46,146 nucleotides of DNA, taken from contig JAJYTC010000014.1 of assembly GCA_021793275.1 (NCBI GenBank), forward strand, positions 1 through 46,146, read 5' to 3'. Origin of the DNA: Deltaproteobacteria bacterium (GTDB taxonomy: Bacteria > Desulfobacterota > Syntrophobacteria > Syntrophobacterales > Syntrophobacteraceae). The first letter of the stretch is position 1; the number at the start of each line of letters is the position of its first letter. Shown in pieces: positions 2-4,321 of the stretch. Both the position numbers and the translations under genes were made by a program. A model generated the notes under the pieces. It did no database searches. It saw nothing but the letters and a program-made list of their open reading frames with translations, and was not told where the DNA came from.

Positions 2-2503
2 AAACGCCGCTATTCGCGCGCTACCACCAGCCAGAAATGCATGCGGGCGGGCGGAAAGCACAACGACCTCGAAAATGTCGGCCGTACGGCGCGCCACCAT
101 ACTTTTTTTGAAATGCTCGGCAATTTCTCCTTCGGCGATTACTTCAAAGAAGATGCGGTCAAATTCGCATGGGAGTTTTTGACCGTGGATATGGGGCTGC
201 CCAAAGACAAGCTCTTTGCGACGATCCACGAAGGCGACCGGGAAATGGAGCTCGGAGCTGACGAAGAAGCGCGCAGATTCTGGGCAAGATATCTTCCCCA
301 AGACCGGATCCTGGCATTTCCGACAAAGGATAATTTCTGGTCGATGGGCGATACCGGTCCCTGCGGCCCGTGTTCGGAGATCATTATCGACCAGGGCCCG
401 GGTATTGGATGCGGCAGGCCCGAGTGCAAACCGGGATGCGACTGCGACCGTTACCTGGAGCTGTGGAACCTGGTATTCATGCAGTTTAACCGCTCCCGGG
501 AAGGTTCTCTGGAACCCCTGCCCAGGCCGAGCATCGACACCGGAATGGGGCTCGAAAGAATCGCAGCCGTACTGCAAAAAGTTCCCTCAAATTACGACAC
601 CGACATTTTTGCCCCGATGATGGCCAGGATCGAACAGCTTACCGGGCACAAATACGGCGCCTCGGCAGAAAAGAACGTTTCATTCAAGGTCATTGCCGAT
701 CACAGCCGCTCAGCGGCTTTTCTGATCGGAGACGGCGCTTTGCCGGGCAATGAAGGACGCGGCTACGTGCTGAGGCGAGTAATCCGGCGCGCCTTGAGAC
801 ACGGGCGGTTTCTGGGCCTGGACCGGCCCTTTTTGTCCGAGGTTGCCCAAGCGGTCATGGAATCCATGCAGGACGCTTATCCGGAACTTTTGGAAAACCG
901 CAGCTTCATAACCCGCGTCATCCAGAACGAAGAAGAACGATTCAACGAAACCCTGGATAACGGCTTGAGGCTCCTGCAAACCGAAATGAAGCGGCTCAGT
1001 GACGAAAAAGCCACAACAATTCCCGGCTCGCTCATCTTCAAGCTCTACGATACATACGGTTTCCCGATCGATATCATTACCGACATGTCCGGGGATTCGG
1101 GTTTTCAGGTCGATGAGGCCGGGTTTCATGATTTCATGGAAAAGCAGCGCGATCAATCCAGAGCGGCCTGGAAAGGCAGCGGAGATCGCGAAATTCCCGA
1201 AGCCATTCGCCAGCTTTCCTCAAGAGGCATAAGCACGGATTTTCTCGGTTATGAAACGACGCAGGCCGATTCCGAGATAATCGCCCTGATCAGCGACGGA
1301 GAAGAAATCGGTTCGGCCTCCGAGGGGATGGACGTTGAATTGATCACCGCCGAAACCCCGTTTTACGGCGCATCGGGCGGCCAGGTGGGCGATAAGGGAG
1401 TGATAAGCGGACCGGCGGGAAAAATTACCGTCGTGGACACCTTGAAGCTCCCCGGAAACCTGATAGTGCACGCCGCCAAGGTCGAGGCCGGATCTTTTCA
1501 CGTAGGAGACACAGTCCACCTCGCCGTAGACCAGGAACTGCGCAAAGACACCGAAATACATCACACTGCAACTCATATCCTGCACGCTGTTTTGCGCAAG
1601 GTGCTCGGAGACCACGTCAAGCAGGCGGGTTCTCTCGTGGCGCCCGACCGTCTCCGCTTCGACTTCACTCACTTCAGCGCATTGACCCCCGAGGAACTCG
1701 AGCGTGTCGAGCGGCTGGCAAATGATCAAATCCGCCAAAACCTCCAGCTCAGCGTCCGGGTCATGGAACTCGAGGAGGCATTGAAGACCGGCGCCATGGC
1801 GCTTTTCGAAGAAAAATACGGCGAGCGCGTCCGGTTGGTTGAAATTCCGGGCTTCAGCCGGGAGCTTTGCGGCGGCACGCACACCCGATGGACTGGAGAA
1901 CTGGGGCTTTTCGTGATTTTACAGGAAACGGGCATAGCTGCCGGGGTCCGAAGGATCGAAGCCCTTGCCGGCAGGCATGCGGTGGAATACTTGAATCGAC
2001 AGAGACAAGCCCTCAACCGTGCCGCTTCTGCGCTTAAAACGGCGCCGCTCGAAGTTGGCGAACGCGTCGAAAAAATCCTCGCCCAACAGCGCCAGATGGA
2101 AAAGGAAATCGAGGCCCTCAAGGCTTCCGCCGCCGGCAGACGCTCGGCCGATCTCTTCGATCAGGCCGCTGAAATAGAGGGCGTACGGGTCCTCATTGCT
2201 CAAATCGAAGCCGATGATCCCAAGGCGCTCCGTGAAATAAACGATAAGTTCAAAGAAAAATTTGCCAGGGGAGTAGCTGTTCTCGGCGCCGTTTCGGGTG
2301 CAAAGGTCTTTCTGCTCGCAGGCGTTACCGCAGAGCTTACCGGCAGGTTGCACGCCGGTAATCTCATCAAAGAGATCGTTAAGGAAGTGGGAGGTTCCGG
2401 CGGTGGAAGACCCGATATGGCTCAAGCCGGCGGCAACAGGCCCGATAAGATCGAGGAGGCCCTCCATCTAGCCGAAAAATTAATCCGCGAAAAGCTCGCG
2501 TGA
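2..2503 (+). CDS. alaS: Alanine--tRNA ligase, 5'-truncated by window start
   Basis: AlaRS charges tRNA-Ala with alanine and hydrolyses mischarged Ser/Gly-tRNA-Ala. The reading frame is open from base 2, and the first residues (TTSQKCMRAGGKHNDL) match the conserved AlaRS aminoacylation domain. The true start is therefore upstream of the window, and roughly 40-50 residues are missing from a family length near 875. In order one sees the class II core (ARHHTFFEMLGNFSFGDYF), the tRNA-recognition region, the editing domain with its zinc ligands HTATH (about 1562-1576) and CGGTHT (about 1867-1884), and the C-terminal DHHA1 domain with GGSGGGRPDMAQAGG (about 2391-2435). ATG 41 is an internal Met, not the start. 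The gene is intact to its TGA at 2501-2503. A convergent small gene begins 21 bases beyond the stop, and no terminator hairpin is obvious between them. Confidence 0.97.
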   Translation, partial: KRRYSRATTSQKCMRAGGKHNDLENVGRTARHHTFFEMLGNFSFGDYFKEDAVKFAWEFLTVDMGLPKDKLFATIHEGDREMELGADEEARRFWARYLPQDRILAFPTKDNFWSMGDTGPCGPCSEIIIDQGPGIGCGRPECKPGCDCDRYLELWNLVFMQFNRSREGSLEPLPRPSIDTGMGLERIAAVLQKVPSNYDTDIFAPMMARIEQLTGHKYGASAEKNVSFKVIADHSRSAAFLIGDGALPGNEGRGYVLRRVIRRALRHGRFLGLDRPFLSEVAQAVMESMQDAYPELLENRSFITRVIQNEEERFNETLDNGLRLLQTEMKRLSDEKATTIPGSLIFKLYDTYGFPIDIITDMSGDSGFQVDEAGFHDFMEKQRDQSRAAWKGSGDREIPEAIRQLSSRGISTDFLGYETTQADSEIIALISDGEEIGSASEGMDVELITAETPFYGASGGQVGDKGVISGPAGKITVVDTLKLPGNLIVHAAKVEAGSFHVGDTVHLAVDQELRKDTEIHHTATHILHAVLRKVLGDHVKQAGSLVAPDRLRFDFTHFSALTPEELERVERLANDQIRQNLQLSVRVMELEEALKTGAMALFEEKYGERVRLVEIPGFSRELCGGTHTRWTGELGLFVILQETGIAAGVRRIEALAGRHAVEYLNRQRQALNRAASALKTAPLEVGERVEKILAQQRQMEKEIEALKASAAGRRSADLFDQAAEIEGVRVLIAQIEADDPKALREINDKFKEKFARGVAVLGAVSGAKVFLLAGVTAELTGRLHAGNLIKEIVKEVGGSGGGRPDMAQAGGNRPDKIEEALHLAEKLIREKLA

Positions 2504-2524: not shown

Positions 2525-2692
2525 TCAAATCCGGTCCACACGGCAAAACGATAGCTCCTTTTCCACCTCGTCCGTGAGGTCCTCGCGAAAATCCATTATG
2601 CTATATATCGCGCCGCATTCCCGGCAACGCAGGTAGGCCGTGCGTCAGCCTTTCACTATTTCGACTTCTTTGTTGCACTTTTTGCAAAGCAA
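2525..2692 (-). CDS. Small dual-CXXC protein with in-frame TGA, candidate selenoprotein
   Basis: This is a 55-codon frame with a single in-frame TGA at 2647-2645 (codon 16). It reads MLCKKCNKEVEIVKG, then U or stop, then RTAYLRCRECGAIY and an acidic helical tail ending CRVDRI and TGA. Zinc-ribbon-like CxxC pairs (C3/C6 and C23/C26) lie on both sides of the TGA, so both halves clearly belong to one protein. The start is taken as TTG 2692 because AAGGAG lies 8 bases upstream of it; a GTG at 2701 is in frame but overlaps that Shine-Dalgarno. I recall a family described as dual CXXC motif small (seleno)protein in anaerobic Desulfobacterota, which would fit. A short hairpin (ACGCA/TGCGT) starts at the A of the TGA, and a second (CGGC/GCCG) lies just after it; neither proves a SECIS element. 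The alternative is a recent nonsense mutation in a zinc-ribbon gene. Its job is unknown; redox or metal binding is an inference. Confidence 0.7.
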
Positions 2693-2853
2693 TTGCGGCA
2701 CTCCTTGATCGGACTCAATATGGGAACTAATTTATATCGAATTCAGGCTTTAATTCAAGATGTAATCCGGATCTCTGAAAAAAGACAGGAGGTTCCACAT
2801 GTTCCCGGGGTGAGTTTTGCGATTTTACAGGTTCCAAGAGCGATTACCGGTTA

Positions 2854-3013: not shown

Positions 3014-4321
3014 ATGAAATCTTACGGCTCTGAAAAGTGCCTTCCATTTGATTATTATTTGAAAAAGCCCGATTCGGACGAGGACTTTGAAAGCCTCCTC
3101 CAAGGACGGGCAATAGAGGGCCGTTTTGAAAGGTCCGAGCTGGACCTGGAGCATATCGACCGGGAAGGTACGGAAGAAGAATCCGGCATTGCCGGGTTGG
3201 CCGAAATGGAAGTCGATGAAGAGGAAGAGCAAAGCGAGGCGGAAACAGCAGCGGTTTCCGTAGAGGAATTCGAAGAAGACCACATCACCTGTTACCTCAA
3301 AGAAGTGTCCAGCTATCCTCTGCTCACCCAGGAGCGGGAAACCGAGCTTGCGCAGATAATAAGGCACGGCCAGGACGACTTGGTGCAGATAGTGCGGGAA
3401 CATATTGACGATGACAGGATAATGGCGGAGCTCAACGAAAAGGTCAAAAAGCTCCTGGAGCATGAGAAAACCTTCCCTGGTGTGAGAGACAAGGTCCTCA
3501 AGGTAATAGTGCGCACGCTGGAACGGGCAGTTTCGGAGCATGCGGAAAATCCACTTTTCCCGGCCACGCTATGCAGGGTCAGGGCAATAATGAGGGCGGT
3601 GGACACGGCAAAGCAGGAGATGGTCCGGGCCAATCTGAGGCTGGTCTTGAGCATAGCCAAGCGCTACAGGGGCAGGGGCATGACTTTCGACGACCTGATC
3701 CAGGAAGGAAACCTGGGGCTTCTCAAAGCGGTCGGCCGGTTCGACCACACCAAGGGGAACCGGTTCAGCACCTATGCCACCTGGTGGGTACGGCAGAGCA
3801 TCATTCGCGGCATTTACGACAAGACCAGGACGATACGGCTGCCCGTGCATTTTATCGAATTGAAAAACCTTTTTTTCAAGGTCTATTACGAACTGCTCAA
3901 GGAATTGGGGCGGGAGCCGACGGCCGCGGAAATAGCCGAGCATTCCAGTCTGCCCGTGGAAAAGGTGCAGATGGTCCTCACACTTGCCGCTCAGCCCATA
4001 TCCCTGGAAACCCCCATAGGGGAAGATGAACAGCGGCTGGGCGATTTTATCGAAGACGAGAGAGCGATTTCCCCTGCCGATGAATGTTCGGACAGGGAAT
4101 TGGCCGAAGTGACGAGGGCACTGCTTTCGACACTCCAGCCAAGAGAGGAAAAAATCCTGCGGCTGCGGTTCGGCCTTGACGGTCAACCGGCTGAAACTCT
4201 CGAGAAAATAGGCAAGATTTTTAATGTCTCAAAGGAAAGGATACGCCAGATTGAAAAAAAGGCGCTCCGAAAGCTGAAAAATCCCAACAGACAGGCATGT
4301 CTGAAGAATTTTATAGACTAG
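3014..4321 (+). CDS. Group 2 (RpoS/RpoD-like) RNA polymerase sigma factor
   Basis: A 435-residue sigma-70 family protein that directs RNA polymerase to promoters. It has region 1.2 (DHITCYLKEVSSYPLLTQE, about residues 92-112), a short non-conserved linker, region 2 (RANLRLVLSIAKRYRGRGM through FSTYATWWVRQSII), region 3 (ELGREPTAAEIAE) and region 4 with its helix-turn-helix (FNVSKERIRQIEKKALRKL). The length and the lack of a large 1.1/NCR insert exclude a housekeeping RpoD and point to a group 2 factor. The first 90 residues are rich in Glu and Asp. ATG 3014 follows AAGGAG. The stop (TAG 4319-4321) shares the palindrome CTAG with the stop of the convergent rimO. I do not assign rpoS, since several paralogues of this type occur in Desulfobacterota. 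Confidence 0.93.
   Translation: MKSYGSEKCLPFDYYLKKPDSDEDFESLLQGRAIEGRFERSELDLEHIDREGTEEESGIAGLAEMEVDEEEEQSEAETAAVSVEEFEEDHITCYLKEVSSYPLLTQERETELAQIIRHGQDDLVQIVREHIDDDRIMAELNEKVKKLLEHEKTFPGVRDKVLKVIVRTLERAVSEHAENPLFPATLCRVRAIMRAVDTAKQEMVRANLRLVLSIAKRYRGRGMTFDDLIQEGNLGLLKAVGRFDHTKGNRFSTYATWWVRQSIIRGIYDKTRTIRLPVHFIELKNLFFKVYYELLKELGREPTAAEIAEHSSLPVEKVQMVLTLAAQPISLETPIGEDEQRLGDFIEDERAISPADECSDRELAEVTRALLSTLQPREEKILRLRFGLDGQPAETLEKIGKIFNVSKERIRQIEKKALRKLKNPNRQACLKNFID

Follow-up and report, generated by a model that had tools for sequence, protein, structure and literature searches.

The window (the whole stretch of 46,146 nucleotides analysed here) belongs to a 4.65 Mb draft genome in 278 contigs; among the named genomes of the collection, those closest to it are Syntrophobacteraceae MAGs. 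Between alaS and a gene for a sigma-70 family factor, the minus strand at positions 2692-2525 reads as LLCKKCNKEVEIVKG-U-RTAYLRCRECGAIYSIMDFREDLTDEVEKELSFCRVDRI, a predicted protein of 55 residues in which an in-frame TGA at codon 16 is taken as selenocysteine (Sec). The features of the locus are as follows.

2525..2692, minus strand: predicted gene for a 55-residue selenoprotein of the NF041197 family (55.0 bits with the TGA as Cys, 47.4 bits with it as X, 45.9 bits at the DNA level with one TGA)
2692-2690, minus strand: TTG start codon, from the sequence (the reading begins TTG-CTT-TGC)
2527-2525, minus strand: TGA stop codon after codon 55, from the sequence
2645..2647, minus strand: in-frame TGA at residue 16, probably read as Sec (the column holds a TGA or a Cys codon in 60 of 60 homologues)
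2675..2686, minus strand: first CXXC motif, CKKC (cysteines invariant among 55 aligned members)
2615..2626, minus strand: second CXXC motif, CREC (cysteines invariant among the same 55 members)
2701..2706, minus strand: Shine-Dalgarno sequence AAGGAG, spaced 8 nt from the TTG
2612..2628, minus strand: SECIS-like hairpin with a 5-bp stem and the 7-nt loop CGGGAAU (all five pairs in 29 of 35 Sec forms versus 2 of 25 Cys forms)
41..2503, plus strand: alaS, truncated by the window start and convergent with the selenoprotein gene (Pfam tRNA-synt_2c, 606 bits, and synteny; coordinates counted from the first ATG inside the window)
3014..4321, plus strand: sigma-70 family factor, divergent from the selenoprotein gene (Pfam Sigma70 r1.2/r2/r3/r4)

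The initial annotation, made from the sequence alone, had placed CKKC, a TGA and CREC in a single minus-strand frame between alaS and the sigma factor, behind a good Shine-Dalgarno sequence and a TTG start. The coordinates and the position of the TGA at codon 16 are as it claimed, and Pfam matches identify both neighbours. The arrangement of Shine-Dalgarno sequence and start codon is seen again in homologues; many close relatives start with TTG, other homologues with ATG. The synteny with alaS holds in Syntrophobacteraceae.

A new member of a catalogued family

Both scores of the 55-residue product against the NF041197 profile lie above its curated cut-off of 40 bits, and the match is full-length (positions 1-53 of 53). 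Searching the genome at the DNA level gave the same gene with an E value of 3.2e-11, while the profile matched in none of 14 control genomes, which argues that the gene is not a chance occurrence. NF041197 (CxxC_Se_CxxC) bears the NCBIfam name 'dual CXXC motif small (seleno)protein' and was first described from the Olavius algarvensis delta-1 symbiont; reviews list it as OS_HP3, a hypothetical protein from the 2007 analysis of that symbiont (PMC13188914, PMC9312934). Its members carry a Sec or Cys flanked by two CXXC motifs and occur in Desulfobacterota, the same as here, and we found no difference of substance between the family and the window gene. The latter is thus a real, new example of a known family. 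The statement in the initial annotation that small dual-CXXC selenoproteins exist in Desulfobacterota was correct, the family in question being NF041197 (PMC13188914); the novelty of the find was overrated, OS_HP3 having been described in 2007.

An NF041197 gene is present in 9 of the 11 genomes of the genus, and the presence of one TGA in each of the nine argues against a sequencing error. Among the 60 nearest genomes, 46 carry the gene, with exactly one TGA per copy, and none carries a Cys form. Across the phylum the family was found in 112 of 395 genomes, where forms lacking the TGA are also present. Desulforhabdus sp. TSK, a cultured strain, is one carrier. A family this common in the sampled Desulfobacterota may have a partner that would explain part of their large selenoproteomes.

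Many Desulfobacterota also contain a second, more divergent NF041197-like gene (L112-L127), nearly always with one TGA, which scores under the cut-off when the TGA is taken as a stop and mostly over it when the TGA is taken as Cys; in two of these genes (L115 and L125) CxC replaces the first CXXC. We considered whether a second, lower-scoring TGA copy per genome represents a new subfamily, and rejected this, as three tested TGA copies of its main type pass the NF041197 cut-off once the TGA is counted as Cys.

Coding across the TGA and a hairpin behind it

In 60 homologues extracted from the phylum, the column of codon 16 is occupied by TGA (35 genes) or by TGC/TGT (25 genes) and by no other codon, as expected from the proposal that homologues would carry Cys or U at this position. 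The 55 aligned members share five invariant columns: C3, C6, U/C16, C23 and C26. A tree built with the Sec/Cys column masked requires three changes between the two states, although it rests on few columns and many of its forks are unresolved. The two forms also coexist within a single genus: L078 carries Sec and L071 Cys, the orthologues being 53% identical with similar genes upstream, and the pair offers a ready natural comparison. For a family known so far by name, the analysis as a whole supplies a clean comparison of Sec with Cys. Among six congeners of the window's genome, the part of the gene 3′ of the TGA has dN of 0.06-0.35 and dS of 0.34-2.6; dN below dS beyond the TGA indicates that this region is selected as protein.

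Downstream of the TGA, nucleotides 16-20 pair with nucleotides 28-32 (counted from 0) in a 5-bp stem. The complete stem is present in 29 of 35 Sec forms versus 2 of 25 Cys forms (raw p=6e-9), and GG stands at loop positions 2-3 in 25 of 35 versus 1 of 25. The contrast in the stem persisted after clustering at 70% identity (18 of 21 Sec versus 2 of 13 Cys forms, p=8e-5) and at 60% identity (p=0.002), and lost significance at 50%, where the comparison is down to 8 Sec and 5 Cys rows. Since Sec and Cys forms differ in protein sequence too, we also analysed synonymous codon choice. Cys codons 3′ of the TGA, inside the hairpin, are TGC rather than TGT by 67:3, as compared with 48:22 for Cys codons 5′ of the TGA in the same genes (p=3e-5). 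Likewise, the Arg/Lys codon 8, which falls in the loop, has G as its third base in 28 of 31 cases versus 108 of 284 for other Arg/Lys codons (p=2e-8). All five stem pairs are found in 11 of 14 more distant TGA members as well. The loop in many Sec forms is AGGUC, which the loop of the E. coli fdhF SECIS element resembles. Taken at its fixed place after the TGA, the hairpin is SECIS-like and a putative SelB site.

Folding energy gave a different picture. In the window, the minimum free energy fold takes a neighbouring register with the loop GGAAUG, and the energy of the region after the TGA is ordinary (z -0.83); against synonymous shuffles it is ordinary too (mean z -0.45). We therefore rejected plain minimum free energy and its z-scores as a SECIS test; they are uninformative, being probably dominated by GC content and coding constraint. 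The suggestion that a bacterial SECIS would be recognized by folding the bases after the TGA thus held for a stem at a fixed position and for the codon choice within it, but not for folding energy alone.

Decoding of the UGA

The genome encodes SelA (618 bits), SelD (379 bits; contig C115:14356-15276) and a tRNA-Sec with a UCA anticodon. The selD gene has a TGA of its own (L045, L050), which independently supports the reading of UGA as Sec in this genome; this TGA falls at the probable catalytic Cys. A selB profile gave no match over its cut-off in the genome, because the gene is broken by a contig edge and only its C-terminal quarter remains: with SelB of a congener as the query, residues 475-633 were found at 87% identity at positions 4-480 of contig C90, and the assembly gap there explains the apparent absence of selB. 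Thus, of the machinery that the initial annotation proposed to look for, selA, selD and tRNA-Sec(UCA) are in place, whereas selB is represented in the draft by its C-terminal end and not at full length. SelB was found in 109 of the 112 genomes that bear the family, the other three being this draft and two genomes with a completeness of 67% and 76%. It was also found in 243 of 283 genomes without the family, and the co-occurrence is therefore weak support. The initial annotation had held that an ordinary residue at codon 16 in homologues, together with a genome devoid of Sec machinery, would speak against a selenoprotein; neither was found.

The family match, the column restricted to Sec and Cys, the machinery and the hairpin support the original reading of a probable selenoprotein, and we put the probability that the UGA at codon 16 is decoded as Sec, giving a 55-residue selenoprotein, at about 0.93 on this sequence evidence. 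SelA, SelD and tRNA-Sec(UCA) would make Sec-tRNA; SelB, putatively bound to the hairpin ~16-32 nt past the UGA, would then insert Sec at codon 16, and translation would run on from there to the TGA behind codon 55. A gene that a standard caller would lose would in this case be a real selenoprotein.

Alternatively, the UGA could be translated as Cys by a selC* tRNA-Cys(UCA) together with a second elongation factor, SelB*. Such tRNAs, with a UCA or GCA anticodon and encoded beside a second selB, are reported in Syntrophobacterales and Desulfobacterales (PMC7609411, a review), and the system is thought to read UGA in these related orders. Consistent with this, SelB paralogues adjoin long-arm GCA/UCA tRNAs in further genera of this family and order (for example L089, L090 and L092). 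Within the window's genus, however, neither a second SelB nor one beside a long-arm tRNA-Cys(UCA) was found in this genome or in 10 congeners, all drafts in which absence is not absolute. The 12 RF01852 matches in the genome correspond to one tRNA-Sec and ordinary tRNAs, and a fragment on contig C166 that we considered as a second SelB proved to be EF-Tu by its sequence. That the TGA gene is nevertheless kept in 9 of the 11 genomes makes Sec much the stronger interpretation in this genus, and translation as Cys is very improbable. Still less credible is a pseudogene or sequencing error, in which an earlier Cys codon has become a true stop: the frame does look broken to a standard gene caller, but the TGA is shared by 46 of the 60 nearest genomes, none of which has a Cys form, dN is below dS beyond it, and the hairpin is kept.

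In relatives, long-variable-arm tRNAs lie beside SelB paralogues with the anticodon GCA (L088:1264-1355, L091:1651-1742 and L092:1020-1108) or TCA (L089:3091-3182 and L090:1362-1453). These loci fit the published selC*/selB* tRNA-Cys system.

Fold, gene context and possible function

The AlphaFold2 model of the protein has a mean pLDDT of 73, with about 79-85 in an N-terminal ribbon, where strands 9-15 and 18-23 form a beta-hairpin with Sec in its turn. Among the structures compared, the best neighbours were RPB9, RPC10 and zinc ribbons of translation factors (VIA Z <= 4.0), with which sequence profiles weakly agree; Foldseek returned no match with E < 0.001. A small zinc ribbon, in which the two CXXC pairs would hold one metal ion, is a moderately supported prediction of the fold. 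We infer that the four motif cysteines bind this metal, which would leave Sec at the tip of the hairpin, between basic residues, free to react.

The neighbours in Syntrophobacteraceae are alaS and either rpoD or a gene for a TGS-domain GTPase, while a phosphoribosyltransferase gene, probably pyrE, lies upstream of many Cys forms. In one related family (L010-L014), apparent genes for peptide deformylase and Met-tRNA formyltransferase (def-fmt), named from the starts of their sequences, lie downstream. We rejected a function based on an operon, as in the window's family the gene points towards alaS and away from rpoD or the GTPase gene, and other lineages have other neighbours. The gene context points to no pathway.

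The position of Sec in the model suggests that its selenolate, at the tip of the beta-hairpin, could react with a partner or a small oxidant. A redox role is the function that we tentatively propose, at rather less than even odds. Somewhat less likely is a role in metal handling or in regulation rather than in redox catalysis, through the binding of RNA polymerase, the ribosome or tRNA enzymes by a zinc ribbon. This alternative bears on function alone and leaves Sec decoding untouched. The nearest folds, the zinc ribbons of RPB9/RPC10 and aIF2-beta, argue for it, having CXXC, a beta-hairpin and CXXC with similar spacing, as do the translation genes frequently found nearby (alaS and the TGS-domain GTPase gene in Syntrophobacteraceae, the apparent def-fmt genes in another family). 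However, the matches in fold are weak, zinc ribbons are widespread, and the neighbours vary by lineage and are not co-directional in the window's family. Moreover, RPB9/RPC10 and aIF2-beta, to which the similarity in sequence and fold is weak, lack Sec and are subunits of large machines, and the window protein scores far under their cut-offs. The two ideas can be combined in a selenium-dependent redox regulator, a zinc ribbon that would offer the Sec on its exposed hairpin tip to a partner machine, be it RNA polymerase, the ribosome or an enzyme acting on tRNA. We regard this as distinctly unlikely; if true, such a regulator would be spread, as a Sec or Cys form, over more than a quarter of the sampled Desulfobacterota genomes.

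Zinc-ribbon proteins of the FmdB family (TIGR02605) are also small and dual-CXXC, like the window protein, and Sec forms of them are described (PMC13188914). In FmdB, however, Sec lies within the motif (UxxU), whereas in the window protein it lies between the motifs, and the latter scores 12-14 bits against TIGR02605, which has a cut-off of 31.3.
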